DNA from: Bacteroidia bacterium
GTDB lineage: Bacteria > Bacteroidota > Bacteroidia > NS11-12g > UBA9320
DNA: 64,000 nt
NCBI GenBank assembly: GCA_020053795.1
Contig: JAGVMN010000019.1
Span: 1 to 64,000 of the forward strand
Direction of reading: 5' to 3'
A program made the translations under genes and the position numbers. Shown here one piece after another: positions 42,327 through 63,458 of this stretch. Position 1 is the first letter of the stretch. The number at the start of each line of letters is the position of its first letter. The notes beneath the pieces were generated by a model, which was given only the letters and a program-made list of their open reading frames with translations, was not told where the DNA came from and did not search any database.

Positions 42327-44027
42327 ATGTATCAAAAAATAAAAATCAAACTCGCTCTGATGTTGCCGCTGATGATTGGCATTTCCAAAGCACAAACTTT
42401 TATCCCTATTCCTGATACGCTTTCGGGAAGTATCATTGACCTAATGATAGCTGACAGCAGCAAGCAATTTTACAACGGCTATAACACCAACACCATAGGA
42501 TATAATGGCAACTATTTGGGACCTACAATTATTCTAAATAAAGGACAAAATGTGACCTTAAATGTAAACAACAAGCTCCGCAACACAACTACAACGCACT
42601 GGCACGGATTGCATGTAGCTCCGATGAATGATGGAAGTCCCCATAACCCTATAACGTCTGGTACCAAATGGAGTCCGTCTTTCACCGTAATGGATTATGC
42701 TGCAACCTACTGGTATCATCCGCACCTTCATGGTAAGACCATGGAACAGGTATTGTTGGGTGCAGCGGGTTTAATCATTGTTCGCGATTCAAATGAAAAA
42801 GCATTAACCCTGCCGCGAACTTATGGTGTTGACGATTTTCCGCTGGTGCTTCAATGGAAAACATTTGATGCAGCAACCAAACAAATTCTGATAAATGATG
42901 AATTGGATAACACAACGATGGTAAACGGGATAATGAACGGACAACTGAATGTGCCTGCACAAATGGTTCGTTTCCGTTTGCTGAATGGCAGTAGTCATCG
43001 TTTTTTTTATTTGGCAATGAACGACAGTCGCAACTTTAAAGTAATTGCCGGTGACGAAAGTTTGTTAAATGCTCCGGTTACAGTAAATAAACTCTTGATT
43101 AGCCCCGGAGAACGCTACGAAATAATTATTGATTTCAGCGGACAAACCGGAAATAATTACTACCTGAGACATATAGGCACGAAGTTGCCTGCCGGATACC
43201 CCGGTGGTCCACCTGATGCAATGGGAATGGGAACACCCGGCCCACTGGATAATACCGATTTTAATTTGTTGCAGTTTAATGTTATTGCTCCGACAGCTAG
43301 TCCTGTTACAGCCATTCCATCATCACTCATTGCAAATGTGATTACACCATCAGCCGGAGCCGGAACCAAAACTTTCAATTTGCAAGGCTCACCTATGATG
43401 AGTATGACCAACTTCACCATTAATGGTGTGCAGTTTGATAAGAATGTGATAAATTTTACTACTAAGCAAGACAGCGTTATGATTTGGAGTATAACAAACC
43501 AAAGTATGATGCCACACCCATGGCATATTCATGGCAATTATTTCTACATCACATCTATTGATGGAAGTACTCCACCAGCCTACATGCAAGGCAGAAAAGA
43601 TGTAGTAACAGTTTCACCCCAAGGTGGTACCGTGCAATTAGTGATGAAGTATGAGGATTTTAATGACCCAAATATACCGTATATGTATCACTGTCATATT
43701 TTAAGTCATGAGGATAATGGCATGATGGGGCAGTTTATTGTCAATCCAGTTTCGACCGGCATAAATGATGTGAATGCAAACTTGTTCAGTGTCATTTATC
43801 CAAATCCTACTTACAATGGCTGGACAATAGATGGCACAAGCAAAGAAAACCTGCTTTTAATTAGTCTTACAAATTCGATTGGACATGTTGTATTACAACA
43901 GACAATATTACCTGTTGCAGGTAAGTTCAATTTTAATGTTCCGGCAAATGAATTAACCGCAGGTATGTACATGCTGAGCTTAATATCTAAATCACAAAAT
44001 CAAACCGTAAAACTAATTAAGCAATGA
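42327..44027 (+). CDS. Multicopper oxidase with T9SS sorting tail
   Basis: A 566-residue exported multicopper oxidase (CueO/CopA-like), likely oxidising Cu(I) to Cu(II). The signal peptide ends near KAQ (residue 23). Copper sites are all present: HWHGLH (91-96), HPHLHG (131-136), HPWHIHG (near 400) and HCHILSHEDNGMM (455-467) with an axial Met. Met-rich stretches GMGTPG and SPMMSMTN lie in the region where CueO binds extra copper. Residues about 487-566 (VIYPNPTYNGW...GMYMLSLISKSQNQTVKLIKQ) form a type A T9SS sorting domain, so the enzyme is predicted to be secreted or surface-attached rather than periplasmic. Its stop overlaps the next ATG (ATGA). Confidence 0.92.
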   Translation: MYQKIKIKLALMLPLMIGISKAQTFIPIPDTLSGSIIDLMIADSSKQFYNGYNTNTIGYNGNYLGPTIILNKGQNVTLNVNNKLRNTTTTHWHGLHVAPMNDGSPHNPITSGTKWSPSFTVMDYAATYWYHPHLHGKTMEQVLLGAAGLIIVRDSNEKALTLPRTYGVDDFPLVLQWKTFDAATKQILINDELDNTTMVNGIMNGQLNVPAQMVRFRLLNGSSHRFFYLAMNDSRNFKVIAGDESLLNAPVTVNKLLISPGERYEIIIDFSGQTGNNYYLRHIGTKLPAGYPGGPPDAMGMGTPGPLDNTDFNLLQFNVIAPTASPVTAIPSSLIANVITPSAGAGTKTFNLQGSPMMSMTNFTINGVQFDKNVINFTTKQDSVMIWSITNQSMMPHPWHIHGNYFYITSIDGSTPPAYMQGRKDVVTVSPQGGTVQLVMKYEDFNDPNIPYMYHCHILSHEDNGMMGQFIVNPVSTGINDVNANLFSVIYPNPTYNGWTIDGTSKENLLLISLTNSIGHVVLQQTILPVAGKFNFNVPANELTAGMYMLSLISKSQNQTVKLIKQ

Positions 44028-47814: not shown

Positions 47815-48246
47815 ATGAAACTGAAAAAATTGTCACTTGCAATAGTCTTAGTATTATTTTGTTTTACTGCTTCTGTAGCTCAACAATCTGACAGCAGTAA
47901 AGTGATTATGAAAACGGAATACACCTGCTCTATGCACCCTGAGATAATAAGTATTGATCCGGGATATTGTCCTAAATGTGGTATGAAATTAATTGAAAGG
48001 GAAATAAAAATAAGACCTGAAACATTAGCACAAACTTATACTTGTTCTATGCATCCAGAAGTGATTTCAGACAAACCGGGTAAGTGCCCCAAATGTGGAA
48101 TGAATTTAATTCTTAAAGGAGATAGTTCTAAGAAACACAAGGGTTGCATGGGTATGATGGGTGGCGAAATGGGACATCCTGCGAGGTATTTTGCTATTGG
48201 AGTTGTTGCTATGGTTGCCGTAATGATGCTATTTGTGTTTCGTTAA
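47815..48246 (+). CDS. Tandem heavy-metal-binding domain membrane protein
   Basis: A 143-residue protein. A signal peptide (ends near SVAQ) is followed by two near-identical heavy-metal-binding domains, YTCSMHPEIISIDPGYCPKCGMKL and YTCSMHPEVISDKPGKCPKCGMNL, a Met/Gly/His stretch (KGCMGMMGGEMGHP) and a C-terminal membrane helix (YFAIGVVAMVAVMMLFVF). The topology puts both domains in the periplasm, tethered to the inner membrane. It begins 8 bp after the PKD lipoprotein. Likely a Cu/Ag chaperone or sponge. Confidence 0.84.
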   Translation: MKLKKLSLAIVLVLFCFTASVAQQSDSSKVIMKTEYTCSMHPEIISIDPGYCPKCGMKLIEREIKIRPETLAQTYTCSMHPEVISDKPGKCPKCGMNLILKGDSSKKHKGCMGMMGGEMGHPARYFAIGVVAMVAVMMLFVFR

Positions 48247-48392
48247 AGTTGGGTATGAATGAATAACGTCAAAATTCAATTAATATTCAACGTCATTATG
48301 GAGCAAAGCAAGGAAACATAAACTGTGTTTTCGCTTTATTCTTTAAAGACTTCATGTCGTTTTGATGAGCAAAAATGTAATAGAATTAAGTT

Positions 48393-49430
48393 ATGATTAA
48401 AATAGAAAAACTGGGAATAATTCTGAGTCCTTCGGAAAGGGAGTTTGAAAACCTTGGTGTATGCAATCCCGGCATTTATCAGGAAGGGAACAGCGTACAC
48501 ATCTTTTACAGGGCTATACAGGAAGGAAACTTTTCTACCATTGGATATTGCAAAACCGAAGGGCCGGTTCAAATCACAGAAAGACACGAGGAACCTGTAA
48601 TTATCAGAGATTTCGAGTATGAGCGACACGGAGTGGAAGATGCACGAATTGTTAAAATAGATGGCACTTTCTATCTGAACTATACGGCATACGATGGCGT
48701 CAATGCAATGGGGGCTCTCGCTACTTCAAGCAATTTAATTCATTTTAAAAAACATGGCATTGTTACCCCACCGGTCAATTATGAAGAATATGAATGCTTT
48801 GTAACATGCTGCAATGGTGATAAACTAAATCCAAAATACCATCACTATTATAATCTTTTTGCAGAGATTGGGTTGGTTGAAGACAAGTTTAGGTTGCTTA
48901 GAGACAAAGATGTAGTGCTTTTCCCAAGAAAAATAAAGGGGAAGTTTGCCATGCTTCATCGCATCTGGCCTGGTATTCAAATAGTGTATTTTGATGATTG
49001 GAGTGATTTGACCAAACCTTTCTGGGAAGATTATCTTAAAAACCTGAGCGATCATATTGTTTTAGATCCGAAAGACATTTTTGAAGTTAAATATATTGGT
49101 GCCGGCGGACCACCCATAGAAACGCACGATGGTTGGTTATTAATCTATCACGGCGTTCAGGAAACTACCACCGGAAGAACGTATCATGCTAAAGTTGCTT
49201 TACTGCAATCCGACAATCCGCAGATTGAAATTGCGAGATTGCACTATCCGCTCATTTCCCCAACCATGGAATGGGAAAAGGAGGGAGTCGTGAATAATGT
49301 CGTATTCCCAACCGGCCATTCCCTGTTCGGAAACGATTTGTATTTATATTATGGTGCCGGAGATAAGCATATTTCCGTTGCCAAATTAGATATCAATGAA
49401 CTCCTGTTGGAATTAAAACGACAACCATAA
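48393..49430 (+). CDS. GH130-type glycoside phosphorylase/hydrolase
   Basis: A 345-residue soluble protein with the GH130 five-bladed propeller pattern: NPGIYQEGNSVHIFYRA, HGVEDARIVKIDGTFYLNYTAYDG, the phosphate-site-like KGKFAMLHRIWPGIQIV and the hallmark GAGGPPIETHDGWLLIYHGV. GH130 enzymes mostly phosphorolyse or hydrolyse beta-mannosides. There is no signal peptide, so it is cytoplasmic. It is followed 6 bp later by a glycosyltransferase, and the two form a carbohydrate module within the metal island. The mannoside substrate is inferred from the family only. Confidence 0.85.
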   Translation: MIKIEKLGIILSPSEREFENLGVCNPGIYQEGNSVHIFYRAIQEGNFSTIGYCKTEGPVQITERHEEPVIIRDFEYERHGVEDARIVKIDGTFYLNYTAYDGVNAMGALATSSNLIHFKKHGIVTPPVNYEEYECFVTCCNGDKLNPKYHHYYNLFAEIGLVEDKFRLLRDKDVVLFPRKIKGKFAMLHRIWPGIQIVYFDDWSDLTKPFWEDYLKNLSDHIVLDPKDIFEVKYIGAGGPPIETHDGWLLIYHGVQETTTGRTYHAKVALLQSDNPQIEIARLHYPLISPTMEWEKEGVVNNVVFPTGHSLFGNDLYLYYGAGDKHISVAKLDINELLLELKRQP

Positions 49431-49436
49431 TCGAAT

Positions 49437-51803
49437 ATGAAGTTTCTTGAAAGAGGTATGAAAATGCTGATCATCAGCTCTTACAGTCCGCGAGAATGTG
49501 GTTTGGCCACCTTTTCAAATGACATTTTAAATGCGATTAAGCAAGTGTTTGGCAGTTCAATACCCATAGAGGTGTGTGCCCTTCAAAATGATGAATACCG
49601 CCTTCAATACGGCAAAGAAGTCACTTACATTTTATCTGCTCATTCTTTTGATGATTATCGGTGGGTAGCCGAAGAAATTAATGGTCGAAATGATATAGGA
49701 CTTGTTTGCGTGCAACATGAATTTGGGCTTTTTGGCGGAGACTATGGCGATCACCTGTTATCATTTCTATTGGCACTGAATAAACCCATTGTCACTGTTT
49801 TTCATACAGTTTTGCCGAATCCCGTCGAAGATCGGAAAAATGTAGTTCAAGCCATCGCCAACCTATCTGACAGAATTGTTGTTCTGACCAAAAAGTCGGA
49901 AGATATTTTGGTCGGCCACTATGGTTTTCAAAGATCTAAAATCAAGGTGATCCCTCATGGCACTCATATCGTGCTTTGGGAACAGAAAGAAAAGCTCAAA
50001 GCTCAACTTCACTTCAAAGACAAAATAGTGATGACCACTTTTGGTTTAATCAGCGAAAACAAAAGCATTGAAACTGTACTGTATGCCTTACCGGAAGTGG
50101 TAAAGCAACATCCTGAAGTGATTTATCTGGTACTAGGAAAAACTCACCCTGAAATCATTAAAAGAGAAGGTGAAAAATACCGCAATATGCTCCTTGAGAT
50201 TGTCAGTGACCTGGGCATCACAGATCATGTGATTTTCATCAATGAGTATCTCGGATTAAAACAATTGTTGAACTATTTGACTTTGTCCGACATCTATTTA
50301 TTTACTACCAAAGACCCACATCAAGCAGTAAGTGGCACTTTTTCTTATGCCATGAGTTGTGGTTGTGCTGTTATTTCAACTCCAATTCCGCATGCTCTTG
50401 AAAGTCTTGATTCGGGTACCGGCCTGTTACTGGACGGGTTTGGAAACCCTGAAGCTTTCAAAAAAGCCATTTTAACGTTGATAGAAAATAAAGAAGAACG
50501 AATTGTAATGGGGAAAAATGCTTATTGTCAGACCCATACATCAACCTGGGAAAATGTGGCCATTCAGTATGGGCTTTTATTCGGTGAACTGACCAACAGG
50601 TCCGAAGACCTCAGGTTTTGTTTACCACCTATCAATACAGATCATATAAAAAAACTTACCACTGACTTCGGAATACTGCAATTTTCAAGATTCAGCCAGC
50701 CCGATCCTGACTCGGGATACACACTGGATGATAATGCTAGGGCTTTGATCAATTTGATCATGTATTATGAAATTTATAAGGACGACAATGCTTTGAAATT
50801 AGCAAATACTTATTTGAGTTTTATTGAGTCTATGCAGCGGGAGAGTGGTTGGTTTGACAATTACAAGAGCTACCACCGACAATTGACAACTCAAAATTCA
50901 GCAGTGAATCTTGAAGACTCAAACGGGAGGGCACTTTGGAGTCTTGGCTATACCATTTCTCACAGGCACGTTCTCCCACAAGAAATGGTGTTGAGGGCTG
51001 AAAATTGTTGGAGAAAAGCTATTAATGGTTTGACTCATGTGACCTCCCCCAGAGCTATTTCTTATATCATCAAGGGACTTTATCATTTCTATTCGGTTTA
51101 TAAAGAAGATACCATCAGAGAGTCGGCCAATCGGTTTGCCGATCAATTATTGTATCATTATAACTTCAATTCCGGACATAAATGGCATTGGTACGAGGAC
51201 TATATGACCTATGCCAACACCGTCATGCCTGAGGCCATGATGTATAGCCATTTAATAACAGGTAACGAGCTGTATAAGAAAATTGCCATTCTCACTTTTG
51301 ATTTTCTTTTGTCTCACTATTTTATGAAAGGACAACTAAAAGTAATCTCAAACCGGGGATGGTTTAAGAAGGAAAATGACAGAGTTTTTTACGGCGAACA
51401 ACCTATAGAAGTTGCAACAACCATTATTGCTTTAGATTTGTTCTACGAGATCACCGGAAATGAAAAATACAAAGACCAGTTGGAACTCGCGTTCAGTTGG
51501 TTTCTTGGGAATAACCACCTCAGGCAAATCATGTATAACCCTGTAAACGGGGCCTCTTATGACGGTCTGGAAGACACACAGGTAAATATAAATCAGGGAG
51601 CAGAATCAACATTGTGTTTTTTCAAAGCGAGGATTATTATGGAGAAGTACGTTGTAGAAGGAACTTTTAATAAGTCTGACAATAATTTGTTGTCAGGTCA
51701 GTTAATCAATTTTGAAAAAATACAAAAAACCAAAAATAACGAATTTGCTTTTGCCAACCAGGCCTTTACAAGTAAATCAAGAAAATTTACAAAAAACAAT
51801 TAA
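49437..51803 (+). CDS. Two-domain protein: GT4 glycosyltransferase plus alpha/alpha-barrel domain
   Basis: A 788-residue cytoplasmic protein. Residues about 9-385 are a GT-B family 4 glycosyltransferase (SSYSPRECGLATFSNDILNA; KIKVIPHGTH; TTFGLISENKSIETVLYAL; GTFSYAMSCGCAVISTPIPHALE). Residues about 400-750 look like an (alpha/alpha)6 barrel as in glycoside hydrolases (DPDSGYTLDDNARALINL, LEDSNGRALWSLG, YEDYMTYANTVMPEAMM, VISNRGWF, INQGAESTLCFF). The second domain has acidic pairs that could be catalytic. The gene follows GH130 by 6 bp. Pairing synthesis and cleavage suggests a glycan made and remobilised in the cytoplasm. The product is unknown. Confidence 0.8.
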   Translation: MKFLERGMKMLIISSYSPRECGLATFSNDILNAIKQVFGSSIPIEVCALQNDEYRLQYGKEVTYILSAHSFDDYRWVAEEINGRNDIGLVCVQHEFGLFGGDYGDHLLSFLLALNKPIVTVFHTVLPNPVEDRKNVVQAIANLSDRIVVLTKKSEDILVGHYGFQRSKIKVIPHGTHIVLWEQKEKLKAQLHFKDKIVMTTFGLISENKSIETVLYALPEVVKQHPEVIYLVLGKTHPEIIKREGEKYRNMLLEIVSDLGITDHVIFINEYLGLKQLLNYLTLSDIYLFTTKDPHQAVSGTFSYAMSCGCAVISTPIPHALESLDSGTGLLLDGFGNPEAFKKAILTLIENKEERIVMGKNAYCQTHTSTWENVAIQYGLLFGELTNRSEDLRFCLPPINTDHIKKLTTDFGILQFSRFSQPDPDSGYTLDDNARALINLIMYYEIYKDDNALKLANTYLSFIESMQRESGWFDNYKSYHRQLTTQNSAVNLEDSNGRALWSLGYTISHRHVLPQEMVLRAENCWRKAINGLTHVTSPRAISYIIKGLYHFYSVYKEDTIRESANRFADQLLYHYNFNSGHKWHWYEDYMTYANTVMPEAMMYSHLITGNELYKKIAILTFDFLLSHYFMKGQLKVISNRGWFKKENDRVFYGEQPIEVATTIIALDLFYEITGNEKYKDQLELAFSWFLGNNHLRQIMYNPVNGASYDGLEDTQVNINQGAESTLCFFKARIIMEKYVVEGTFNKSDNNLLSGQLINFEKIQKTKNNEFAFANQAFTSKSRKFTKNN

Positions 51804-51806
51804 TAT

Positions 51807-52706
51807 ATGGACAGACGAAATGTATTAGGTTATTCTGGCGGGGGAGATACTTTTTCTCTTTTTGTAAATTCTCCATTATTTATTTCATCGTGCAAAAAAA
51901 AACAGCATAACAGTATGAAAATGAAGAGAGGGAATGCGGCAGAGATTATCGAAGCAGCAAGTGCTGTGTCGCATAACTATCCTAGTGTTAAAGGAAGATT
52001 AGAAGAGATAACCACCAAATTCACTAACCAAACAACGTATAAAAAAAGATATTCACAAGTATCGGGTTATCATAGCAAATCAATCTTAGTCCCGGCTATA
52101 AAAATCAATTCCGGAGATAGGATAAAGATCAAATTACAAAATCAACCTTCGGGGCCAGGAAATATACACAGGCATAGATTGGTAAACCCAGCTTTGATGG
52201 ATGATCATTCATCAGATACAGCACATTCCGGCTCCTCATTCAAGTATTGTATGACTGTAACTCAGCGTGCTGCATTGAATTGGTTTCATCCGCACATTTA
52301 TGGATACACCGTAATGAAGACGTATAAAGGGCTGGATGGAATATTCAGAATAAATGATATGGAGGAACAAGACCTGAATCGTCCTTCGGGTATTTTTTTT
52401 ACAATTCGGCTTATAATCCAAGGTAAACAGATATTTCGTGATTATACACCTGACTATGCTGCACCAATAACGGATATTACAACACAAAATTTCGAACAAT
52501 ATTTTTTCGTAAATGGAGATTCTTCACCCCTTCCATTTGCAAACAAGTGTCTTTACTTAATACGGGTGATAAATGGTTCCAATGCAAGAATAAATAATCC
52601 GGGATTAAATAAAGGCTTTACCTTCTCTGAATGGCCCGTTTTATTCAAATATGCACAACTTCTAACGATTATTCGAAAACTACAAATATTTATATTTTCA
52701 AATTAA
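51807..52706 (+). pseudogene. Degenerate multicopper oxidase remnant
   Basis: A 299-codon frame clearly related to CueO-type multicopper oxidases: an N-terminus like a Tat/lipoprotein signal (MDRRNVLGYSGGGDTF...LFISSCKKK), INSGDRIKIKLQNQPSGPGN, AALNWFHPHIYGYTVMKTYKGLDG and LYLIRVINGSNARINN. Copper ligands are lost: the first HxHG motif reads NIHRHRLVN and the second HPHxHG reads HPHIYG. The C-terminal half, with the third cupredoxin domain, is absent, and the last ~25 residues no longer resemble the family. It ends inside the region just before cusA. Interpreted as a decayed gene, although the frame is still open. Confidence 0.72.
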
Positions 52707-52714
52707 CTAAGACG

Positions 52715-55700
52715 ATGCTAAACAAAATAATTCGTTACTTTTTAGAAAACAGGCTTATCGCTTTCATGCTCCTTTTTGGTTTTGTCGCTTGGGGGATTAC
52801 TACTTCTCCATTTAACTGGAATTTAGAATGGTTCCCACGCAACCCCATTGCAGTAGATGCTATTCCGGATATTGGCGAAAATCAACAAATTATTGCTACA
52901 GGTTGGATGGGTCGAAATCCGGAGGATATAGAAAATCAAATTACCTATCCACTATCTACTGCTTTACTCGGAATACCGGGTATAAAAGATATTCGCAGTA
53001 CTTCCATGTTTGGGATGTCGTTCATCTATCTCATTTTTGAGGAAAAAATTGATTTTTACTGGAGTCGTTCCCGTATTTTGGAGAAATTAAATTCCCTGCC
53101 ACCGGGCACACTTCCGCAAGGTGTACAGCCCACCATGGGACCGGATGCCACTGCTCTCGGACAAGTTTTTTGGTACACACTCGAAGGCCGAGATCCAAAA
53201 ACAGGAAAACCAACCGGAGGATGGGATCCACAAGAGTTAAGAACCATTCAAGATTTTTATCTAAGATATATACTCAATGCCGTTTCCGGAGTTTCTGAAG
53301 TTGCTTCTATTGGCGGCTTTGTGAAAGAATACCAGGTGGATATGGACCCCAATGCACTCAAGGAAAACCGGATTAGTGCGGAACAAGTGATGAATGCAGT
53401 AATGAAAAGCAACATTGATGTGGGTGCAGCAACCATCGAAATAAATAAAGCCCAATACTACGTCCGTGGATTGGGTTACATCAAAAAATTGAAAGATTTG
53501 GAAAACGCCGTTGTTGATGTACGCAACAATATTCCTCTCCGAATAAAAGATGTGGCCAAAGTTAATTTTGGTCCTGCCATTCGTATTGGAGGCTTAGATA
53601 AGGAAGGTTCTGAGGCCGTTGGAGCCGTTGTTGTGGCCCGTTATAAATCCAACCCATTAGCCGTGATTGAAAGCATTAAAAAGAAAATTGCAGAAATCAC
53701 ACCCGGGTTACCCTCTAAAACATTGGCTGATGGAACAGTCTCTAAAGTTTCCGTAGTTCCATTTTACGATCGAACCGGATTAATAAAAGAAACGATCGGC
53801 ACCTTAGAGTCGTCCTTATCTCACGAAATTCTCATTTCTATTATTGTAATTATCGTGTTACTGATGAATCTTCGGGCGTCTTTTATTGTTGCATTTTTCT
53901 TACCCGTTGGTGTGTTGATGACTTTTGGAGCGATGAAAGTATTTGGTATTGATGCCAATATTGTTGCTTTATCAGGAATTGCAATTGCCATTGGAGTCAT
54001 GATTGACTTGGGCGTTGTAGATATTGAAAACATTATTCGACATCTGGAGATGCCAGAAAATCACAATGCAAAAGGTCGGAAATTAATAGAAGTTATCTAT
54101 ACAGGAGCCTCCGAAGTAAGAACTGCCGTAACTGTTGCACTGGCCACTACTATTGTAGGTTTTCTTCCGGTTTTTGCTATGGAGGCAGCCGAAGGAAAAT
54201 TGTTTACACCACTGGCCTACACCAAAACTTTTGCCATGGTGGCTTCTTATGTTTCCGGAATGATTGCTTTACCTGCATTAACCTACTATGTTTTTTCCGT
54301 ACGTGCCAATACCAAAAGGGTACATATTATTTTTAACGTTTCTTTGCTGTTTGCAGGACCTTTGTTTGCTATTCTTTGGGGCATATATCCTGCATTGGCT
54401 CTAACAGCATTGGGCATTAATAATTTACTGGAAAATCGTTGGCCTGAAAAATACAAAAAAATTCCTGACCTCATCAATAATGGAATCATTCTATTGGTAG
54501 CAGTTTATTATTTAGCTGTTGAATGGATGCCTTTGGGTGTCGCCAACAGTGTACTGGTTAATATACTTTTTGTTGGGGGAATTACGGCCTTCATTCTTGG
54601 AATTATTTCTTTGGTTGTTAACCATTACGAAAAAACGTTGAGATGGTGTTTAGCCAACAAATTCAAATTTATGTTACTTCCATTTTTTACACTTTTGTTG
54701 GGCTTTACCGTTTGGCAAGGAGGTGAAAAAATATTCGGTTGGATAGCAAATGGAACTGAGAAAATTGGTTGGAATGTCCGTCAAACTTCCCTATGGGAAA
54801 GTCTCATACATAAATTTCCGGGTACAGGTAAAGAATTTATGCCAGCACTTAATGAAGGCTCTTTTTTGCTGATGCCAACCACCATGCCTCATTCAGGAGT
54901 GGAAGAAAATATGGATGTAATTGCAGTGCTTGACCAACGGGTTCGTGCAATCCCTGAAGTAGAAGTAGTAGTTGGAAAATGGGGACGTGCTAACTCTGCC
55001 CTAGACCCTTCACCGGTTTCGATGTACGAAAATCTCATTAACTACAAATCCGAATACATCCAAAACGAGGATGGTTACCGGATGCGTTTTAAAGTAGATG
55101 ATGATGGTAATTTTCTACTGAAAGATTCCACCACTTATAAAATAGAAAAAGACGGGTATAAAACTATTTTTGCTCATCAGCTTATTAGCGATGAAAGTGG
55201 AGAATACTTCCGCCAGTGGCGGCCCGAAATAAAAAAAGCGAATGACATTTGGAAAGAAATTATCAAAGCCGCATCAATTCCGGGCATGACTTCTGCCCCT
55301 AAAATTCAACCCATCGAAACGCGTTTGATAATGTTGCAAACAGGAATGAGGGCACCAATGGGTATGAAGGTGTTTGGACCAGACCTTGCTACCATCGAAA
55401 AAGTGGGTATTGATTTAGAAAACGTACTTAAAGAAGTTCCATCCGTTTCGGCAGTTTCTGTTTTCGCCGATAGAATTGTTGGTACGCCCTATTTGGAGAT
55501 AGAAATAAATAGAGAAGCCATTGCCCGTTATGGGTTAACAATAGAAGAAATGCAAACGACAATCAGTTCTGCTATTGGTGGAGAAAAAATTTCTACCACT
55601 GTTGAAGGGCGAGAACGGTTTCCGATTCGTATTCGTTACGCCCGAGCTTACCGTGATAATCCCGCAGACTTAAAGAAAATTTTGATTCCCACACCCATCA

Positions 55701-56542
55701 TGGTTCAAGTTCCATTAGGAGAATTGGCTGAAATAACCTACAAACGTGGACCCCAAATGATACGTGGTGAAAATACATTTTTGTCAGGTTTTGTGATATT
55801 TGATAAAAAACCCGCGTATGCCGAAGTAGATGTTGTGGAAGAAGCACAACGATTTATTGATTCTAAAATAAAATCGGGTGATCTTGTTATTCCTCCGGGA
55901 GTTTCCTATAAATTTTCGGGTAATTTTGAAAATCAGGTTAGGGCAACCAAACGCCTGATGATAGTTGTTCCCCTGTCGTTATTGGTAATATTTATGATTC
56001 TTTATTTTCAGTTTAAAACTGTTACGGCCTCTTTTATTCACTTTTCGGGCGTTTTTGTTGCCTTTGCAGGGGGTTTTATCTTGATTTGGTTATATGGACA
56101 GGATTGGTTTTTAAACTTTTCTGTAGCTGGGATAAACATGCGTGACTTGTTTCAAATTCATCCAATTAATTTGAGCGTTGCTGTTTGGGTAGGATTTATT
56201 GCCTTGTTTGGAATAGCAACCAATGATGGGGTAATCATGGGAACATATATTCATCAAATCTTCGAAAAATTAAATCCAAAAACAATTGAAGAAGTTCGAG
56301 AAGCTGTTGTTATTGCAGGAAAAAAACGGGTTCGTCCCGCCATGATGACCGGTGCTTGTGCCATTATCGCCTTATTGCCGGTACTGACCTCTACCGGTAA
56401 AGGGGCCGACATTATGGTTCCGATTGCTATTCCAACTTTTGGGGGTATGGTAATACAAATGATGACTATATTGGTCGTACCTATTTTACAATATATCTGG
56501 CGGGCTAATGTGATCAAAAAGGAATTAAAACAAAAACAATAA
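52715..56542 (+). CDS. cusA: Heavy-metal RND efflux pump (CusA/CzcA family)
   Basis: A 1275-residue inner-membrane RND transporter that exports Cu(I)/Ag(I) or divalent metals through a tripartite complex. The start MLNKIIRYFLENRLIAFMLL is typical; the 28-codon longer track start overlaps the oxidase remnant. Family segments include DAIPDIGENQQIIATGWMGR, GIAIAIGVMIDLGVVDIENI (proton relay in TM4), MPALNEGSFLLMPTTMP and GIATNDGVIMGTYI. About 12 membrane helices are visible plus two large periplasmic loops. Length exceeds E. coli CusA (1047), due to an extra membrane region around residues 560-680. Methionines in the porter domain suit Cu/Ag, so CusA is favoured over CzcA. TolC and adaptor genes follow. 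Confidence 0.9.
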   Translation: MLNKIIRYFLENRLIAFMLLFGFVAWGITTSPFNWNLEWFPRNPIAVDAIPDIGENQQIIATGWMGRNPEDIENQITYPLSTALLGIPGIKDIRSTSMFGMSFIYLIFEEKIDFYWSRSRILEKLNSLPPGTLPQGVQPTMGPDATALGQVFWYTLEGRDPKTGKPTGGWDPQELRTIQDFYLRYILNAVSGVSEVASIGGFVKEYQVDMDPNALKENRISAEQVMNAVMKSNIDVGAATIEINKAQYYVRGLGYIKKLKDLENAVVDVRNNIPLRIKDVAKVNFGPAIRIGGLDKEGSEAVGAVVVARYKSNPLAVIESIKKKIAEITPGLPSKTLADGTVSKVSVVPFYDRTGLIKETIGTLESSLSHEILISIIVIIVLLMNLRASFIVAFFLPVGVLMTFGAMKVFGIDANIVALSGIAIAIGVMIDLGVVDIENIIRHLEMPENHNAKGRKLIEVIYTGASEVRTAVTVALATTIVGFLPVFAMEAAEGKLFTPLAYTKTFAMVASYVSGMIALPALTYYVFSVRANTKRVHIIFNVSLLFAGPLFAILWGIYPALALTALGINNLLENRWPEKYKKIPDLINNGIILLVAVYYLAVEWMPLGVANSVLVNILFVGGITAFILGIISLVVNHYEKTLRWCLANKFKFMLLPFFTLLLGFTVWQGGEKIFGWIANGTEKIGWNVRQTSLWESLIHKFPGTGKEFMPALNEGSFLLMPTTMPHSGVEENMDVIAVLDQRVRAIPEVEVVVGKWGRANSALDPSPVSMYENLINYKSEYIQNEDGYRMRFKVDDDGNFLLKDSTTYKIEKDGYKTIFAHQLISDESGEYFRQWRPEIKKANDIWKEIIKAASIPGMTSAPKIQPIETRLIMLQTGMRAPMGMKVFGPDLATIEKVGIDLENVLKEVPSVSAVSVFADRIVGTPYLEIEINREAIARYGLTIEEMQTTISSAIGGEKISTTVEGRERFPIRIRYARAYRDNPADLKKILIPTPIMVQVPLGELAEITYKRGPQMIRGENTFLSGFVIFDKKPAYAEVDVVEEAQRFIDSKIKSGDLVIPPGVSYKFSGNFENQVRATKRLMIVVPLSLLVIFMILYFQFKTVTASFIHFSGVFVAFAGGFILIWLYGQDWFLNFSVAGINMRDLFQIHPINLSVAVWVGFIALFGIATNDGVIMGTYIHQIFEKLNPKTIEEVREAVVIAGKKRVRPAMMTGACAIIALLPVLTSTGKGADIMVPIAIPTFGGMVIQMMTILVVPILQYIWRANVIKKELKQKQ

Positions 56543-63248: not shown

Positions 63249-63458
63249 ATGAAAACGGCAATCACACTACCTGCATTATTCCATACAGCGATCATGTTCA
63301 TAGCTTTATACAAGAGCATTACTTCGGGAAAAAAAGCAGGAAAAACCGTGCAAACTGAAAATCGCATTGATCAAATCCCTGTGTGCAAAATTGATAGGAT
63401 AAAAGTGGAACCAAAACTTGAATACCCCGAAATCATCATCACTTTCACCAACCACTAA
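63249..63458 (+). CDS. Small hypothetical protein
   Basis: A 69-residue ORF with an N-terminal hydrophobic segment (ITLPALFHTAIMFIALYKSI), a Lys-rich middle and a short C-terminal strand (YPEIIITFTNH). No family recognised. It lies 21 bp after the YceI-like gene and 10 bp before the P-type ATPase, in the same direction, so it may be a real member of the operon or a degraded fragment. Confidence 0.35.
   Translation: MKTAITLPALFHTAIMFIALYKSITSGKKAGKTVQTENRIDQIPVCKIDRIKVEPKLEYPEIIITFTNH

Follow-up and report, generated by a model that had tools for sequence, protein, structure and literature searches.

Two adjacent genes in the draft genome of a member of the Bacteroidia (GenBank assembly GCA_020053795.1, contig JAGVMN010000019.1), encoding a GH130 protein and a fusion of a GT4-type GT-B domain with an (α/α)-barrel domain, on balance appear to represent a mobile two-gene module of mannoside turnover that belongs to general-stress islands, was acquired laterally and landed in a copper region. 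This view builds on the conservation of the pair, the lack of it in other copper islands, its position in the phylogeny and the mannose-activation genes that adjoin it in relatives, all of which are observed; from these we infer the enzymatic activities, the linkage, the sugar donor, the role and the transfer event. The relevant features of the window (the whole stretch of 64,000 nucleotides that was analyzed) are as follows.

42327-44027: multicopper oxidase with a T9SS C-terminal sorting tail
47815-48246, plus strand: protein with two heavy-metal-binding (HMBD) domains (PF19335), upstream boundary of the pair
48393-49430, plus strand: GH130 protein, predicted β-1,2-mannoside phosphorylase (345 aa; PF04041)
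49431-49436: intergenic gap of 6 bp between the GH130 and fusion genes
49437-51803, plus strand: GT4-type GT-B/(α/α)-barrel fusion (788 aa; PF00534/PF13439)
51807-52706, plus strand: multicopper oxidase remnant (PF07732 alone of the three Cu-oxidase domains), downstream boundary of the pair
52715-56542, plus strand: cusA-type RND pump (TIGR00914, 762 bits)

The open reading frame positions, Pfam searches and fold search agree with the preliminary description of this region, which placed a GH130-type gene and a fused GT4/(α/α)-barrel gene 6 bp apart amid metal-resistance genes; the pair is indeed flanked by genes for HMBD proteins, multicopper oxidases, CusA, an outer-membrane efflux protein (OEP), CusB and a Cu P-type ATPase. 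On the upstream side lie HMBD, PKD and T9SS-tagged proteins along with the multicopper oxidase at 42327, which is probably secreted or surface-bound, given its T9SS sorting tail. The order on the downstream side is the decayed multicopper oxidase, cusA, the OEP gene and cusB, and the Cu P-type ATPase gene starts at 63418 and continues beyond the end of the window. The oxidase remnant, which starts 3 bp after the fusion stop, consists of the first domain only, and its copper-ligand motifs, read from the translation as HRHR and HPHIYG, are damaged. The 6-bp gap within the pair, which is about 11-14 bp in the close relatives, is consistent with a single transcript. Inspection by eye revealed no apparent signal peptide on either protein. 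A search for the ends of a mobile element around the pair yielded nothing beyond a 17-nt imperfect direct repeat (48270-48286 and 51790-51806; 15/17 positions), which is AT-rich and may be due to chance.

The association of the two genes recurs across several phyla: of 61 loci with the fusion, 42 have the GH130 gene as immediate neighbor in the same orientation and 2 in the opposite orientation, and 9 have it no farther than 5 kb away. Recurrence at this frequency (42/61) in other loci places the adjacency far above chance, and the two genes are a real conserved module. In the 13 close relatives, in which the fusion is 62-72% identical to that of the window, GH130 is invariably directly upstream (13/13), although the GT4 gene of one of these (L007) appears as two open reading frames. 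The fusion was found in 74 of the 396 sampled genomes of the phylum, and plasmid-borne versions, at ~30-36% identity, are present in Alphaproteobacteria, Fusobacteriota and Deinococcota. The literature searched yielded no characterization of the pair, which is widespread, mobile and, as far as that literature shows, uncharacterized.

The preliminary description also spoke of the presence of the pair in metal islands, and a link of this kind found no support in the comparison with other genomes. Multicopper oxidase, HMBD, CusB and close CusA genes were found in none of 49 pair loci, most of them with about 20 kb of context, nor in 18 further loci (0/67 in total), and RND pumps occur in only four of these loci, at about 18-29% identity. 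Conversely, the pair is absent from all 26 cus islands, including four with a CusA 79-85% identical to that of the window. The respective 95% upper bounds are about 6% (0/49) and about 11% (0/26), rough values owing to relatedness among the genomes and to contigs that in some cases stop shortly beyond the genes. This cross-genome count, proposed by the preliminary description itself, finds the pair usually elsewhere, the outcome that it had named as speaking against its reading. The copper neighborhood is local to this genome and is not conserved, and a copper-specific role of the pair is rejected given zero co-occurrence from both sides. The shared strand and the tight packing with cus genes, down to the 3-bp spacing after the fusion, could be taken to mean that the pair is copper-related, for example by making a glycan that binds copper or shields the cell from it, and that the operon recruited the pair on this account; however, such packing is seen in this one genome, both counts speak against a copper role, and the gene directly downstream of the pair is a decayed oxidase gene, so that we consider recruitment for copper highly improbable. 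In two genomes with a close CusA (G554, with an 85% identical cusA copy, and G685), the HMBD gene directly precedes cusA, whereas in the window the pair lies in between; the window therefore looks like the same layout interrupted by the pair and the oxidase remnant. The pair would then have landed between the HMBD gene and the remnant, just ahead of cusA.

In the maximum likelihood tree of the fusion, the window sequence belongs to a 100/100 clade in which all other members are named Flavobacteriaceae or family f5, whereas the eight sequences from its own order branch elsewhere. Given that the closest pairs are all from Flavobacteriaceae and that the own-order versions are just 43-48% identical, lateral arrival of the pair is likely; within this clade the window sequence branches at the base, and the tree accordingly leaves the donor and the direction of transfer unproven. 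The CusA of the window likewise has far closer relatives in other families of the class than in its own order (62% at most), and the pair and CusA probably arrived by separate lateral transfers. The different affinities of the pair and the surrounding cusA, in a draft genome that is 74% complete and split into 76 contigs, might alternatively reflect a chimera of assembly or binning; yet the pair is continuous with 48 kb of upstream and 21 kb of downstream sequence on a single 72.7-kb contig, and its GC content (0.39-0.40) fits that of the neighboring island genes (0.36-0.40), which makes an artifact very unlikely. A recent plasmid origin of the local DNA is rejected as well, the search of plasmids having returned no match.

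Elsewhere, the company of the pair is of a different kind. MlaE/MlaF/MlaD lipid transporters are encoded near it in 16 loci, and the other recurrent neighbors include a Ca-type P-ATPase, CbpA, universal stress proteins (USP), Hsp20, Dps and chaperones; in Flavobacterium, AMP/thymidine phosphorylase is found together with PRPP synthetase, and in Devosia the pair adjoins cydXAB. A gene of the stress set is within reach in only 25 of 65 pair loci, so the stress association is a tendency. The microoxia-induced set of Bradyrhizobium includes MlaE, MCE, USP, DnaJ, thymidine phosphorylase, PRPP synthetase, Hsp20 and CusA/CzcA (PMC6515984), and the overlap of this set with the neighbors of the pair suggests, by analogy, a low-oxygen theme. 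On the contig of the window itself, the row of genes at the end (L095:3418-12655, from window position 63418) consists of the Cu P-ATPase, a Ca-type P-ATPase, a protein with an Mrr-like nuclease domain, an MgtC/DUF4010 protein, a β-CASP hydrolase and an AMP/thymidine phosphorylase, the last resembling (62-63%) its counterpart next to two Flavobacterium pairs. The copper island ends in this stress-type cassette and, since the cassette holds both kinds of genes, stress and copper genes are mixed on this contig.

The GH130 protein matches PF04041 (2e-46); its best NCBIfam model is β-1,2-mannobiose phosphorylase (200 bits, under the cut-off of 450), and its profile matches include the structures 9fj8 (2.7e-86) and 7fip (3.9e-86). 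The catalytic Asp, D83, is part of the motif E82-D83-x-R85, in which it is invariant in 31 sequences, and D83, K172, R190 and H253 are conserved in the GH130 alignment. K172 aligns with the Lys of 9fj8, 7fip and 5b0p, and the β-1,4 enzyme 1vkd has Arg at this position. In GH130, such a Lys (K199 of BT3780) specifies the β-1,2 linkage (PMC4599007), and judging by the alignment K172 is its putative counterpart. The window protein thus shares with the phosphorylases Teth514_1789 (7fip), 9fj8 and Lin0857 (5b0p) the fold family, the catalytic Asp in ED-x-R, the β-1,2 Lys, R190, H253 and the lack of an apparent secretion signal; it differs from them in an insertion of ~45 residues between positions 126 and 171, in Tyr234 at the basic position (K/R) that precedes I/V-G, in its score below the equivalog cut-off and in having a fused GT4 protein as its partner. 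R190 and H253 may correspond to two of the three basic residues with which GH130 phosphorylases bind phosphate, and the putative third position is the one occupied by Tyr234. Phosphorolysis of a β-1,2-mannoside is its likeliest predicted activity. Hydrolysis, that is, a β-1,2-mannosidase, would fit the match to the BT3780 mannosidase model (91 bits) and the Tyr at one basic position of the phosphorylases, but phosphorylase models score higher (200 and 136 bits), the top PDB matches are phosphorylases, and R190 and H253 are retained as in those enzymes, which renders this alternative improbable.

The partner is less conventional. Its N-terminal half matches Glycos_transf_1 (PF00534, 7.5e-18), and both PF00534 and PF13439 are detected in 44 of 44 fusion members; the GT-B domain spans about residues 1-390 and the barrel about residues 395-745. 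The EX7E motif and the donor-site Arg, the roles of which in GT4 enzymes are well known and which together mark retaining glycosyltransferases of this family, are both missing. The motif is replaced by Q296-X7-Y304, invariant across the 44-member alignment, in which Y304 occupies the position of the second Glu according to the alignments with 6kih and MshA, and Q296 that of the first Glu by spacing; the Arg is replaced by Leu (39 members), Phe (4) or Ile (1). Lys209 and His123 are retained. Compared with sucrose-phosphate synthase (6kih), MshA (3c48) and PimA (2gej), the fusion therefore has in common the GT-B domain, these two residues and the Gly motifs, and differs in QX7Y, in Leu, Phe or Ile in place of Arg and in the fused barrel. 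With EX7E turned into QX7Y and the donor-site Arg replaced, the transferase reaction may deviate from textbook chemistry, and the remodeled site may use no nucleotide sugar at all.

The C-terminal half is all-α, with weak Pfam matches to GH127/GH88, and a fold search identifies it as an AGE/YPO2471-like barrel. The AlphaFold model of the full-length fusion (pLDDT 51) is too poor for use; for the barrel domain alone (pTM 0.73), the best PDB match is YPO2471 (7tem), followed by AGE-family epimerases. The (α/α) barrel is common to the fusion, YPO2471 and the AGE-family epimerases and mannose isomerases (5x32, 5zig), with TM-scores that are low (about 0.5-0.65) and come from a model of moderate quality; for 7tem there is a sequence match as well (whole-profile E-value 2.3e-21), which extends to the DD-x-AR motif. 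In the barrel alignment a DD pair is invariant but no His is, which makes AGE-type chemistry unlikely.

Further clues to the substrate come from relatives. On sphingomonad plasmids, the order is manC-PMI-GT4-GH130-phosphomannomutase after groESL (L167, L179) or manC-GT4-GH130 beside dnaK-grpE (L174, L175); L166 and L178 have PMI-GT4-GH130. The presence of manC beside these pairs points toward GDP-mannose, the donor with which the preliminary description proposed to assay the enzymes, but the QX7Y and donor-site changes, which that description had not noticed, weaken the reading of the fusion as a plain GDP-mannose transferase. Nor was a mannose-1-phosphate guanylyltransferase found in the 74%-complete host genome, either with TIGR01479 (GMP_PMI) or with the sphingomonad manC; TIGR01472 (gmd) gave just one weak match below its cut-off, and of the two nucleotidyltransferases detected, one is RmlA/GlmU-like and the other is encoded in a heptose-type cluster.

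For the module proposed here, the fusion would transfer mannose from an activated donor, most likely GDP-mannose, to make a cytoplasmic β-mannoside, probably β-1,2-linked, that would serve as a reserve or protectant under stress, possibly including low oxygen in keeping with the islands concerned; the GH130 protein would phosphorolyze this mannoside to α-mannose-1-phosphate, so that the sugar is recovered without ATP. The earlier idea of a mannoside that is built and recycled thus remains plausible and is better supported than before, by K172, by the kinship with β-1,2 phosphorylases and by the manC, PMI and phosphomannomutase genes of sphingomonads, the activities being predicted ones. The pair might instead serve salvage only, external β-mannosides being taken up or trimmed, with GH130 feeding mannose-1-phosphate to metabolism and the fusion acting as a degrading or phosphorolytic enzyme instead of a synthase. 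GH130 phosphorylases of Thermoanaerobacter have been placed in a GDP-mannose salvage pathway, where a sugar ABC transporter and GH5 lie beside GH130 in a β-mannan cluster (PMC4264767), and the loss of the GT4 donor-site residues, together with a barrel that is similar to sugar-active (α/α) barrels and retains acidic residues, the DD pair among them, would suit such a function. In the window, however, the neighbors are copper genes, and among the recurrent neighbors elsewhere are genes for stress proteins and for Mla lipid transport. Nor do the annotated recurrent clusters show any conspicuous SusCD pair, extracellular glycanase or sugar ABC transporter. The sphingomonad clusters have manC, which converts mannose-1-phosphate to GDP-mannose, yet salvage into GDP-mannose would need manC too. 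Taken together, salvage alone seems rather unlikely.

If a β-mannoside is both made and recycled by the pair, bacterial stress islands would gain a storage or protectant sugar cycle, and the EX7E rule would have an exception among GT-B active sites. The pair merits attention as an uncharacterized stress-island sugar module and not as a copper system, and the mannose-enzyme context in sphingomonads makes the question of its substrate directly testable. A bolder and quite tentative proposal is that the fusion, with its QX7Y motif and barrel, represents a GT-B mannosyl enzyme of a new type and runs with GH130 a bacterial counterpart of mannogen, in which mobile stress islands of several phyla would encode the turnover of a cytoplasmic β-1,2-mannoside that acts as a reserve or protectant. 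In the mannogen cycle of Leishmania, a cytoplasmic β-1,2-mannan is handled by GT108 dual transferase/phosphorylases (PMC8950772). The likeness lies in the idea of such a mannan being built and then phosphorolyzed; in Leishmania a single GH130-like protein does both jobs, whereas in the pair two separate proteins would share them.

Two minor observations concern individual genomes. A Flavobacteriaceae-like pair on a contig (CALPUN020000156.1, locus L010) of a metagenome-assembled genome labeled Bifidobacterium breve probably represents binning contamination. One other genome (G068) carries two divergent fusion genes (L043 and L044), which are 69% and 45% identical to that of the window.
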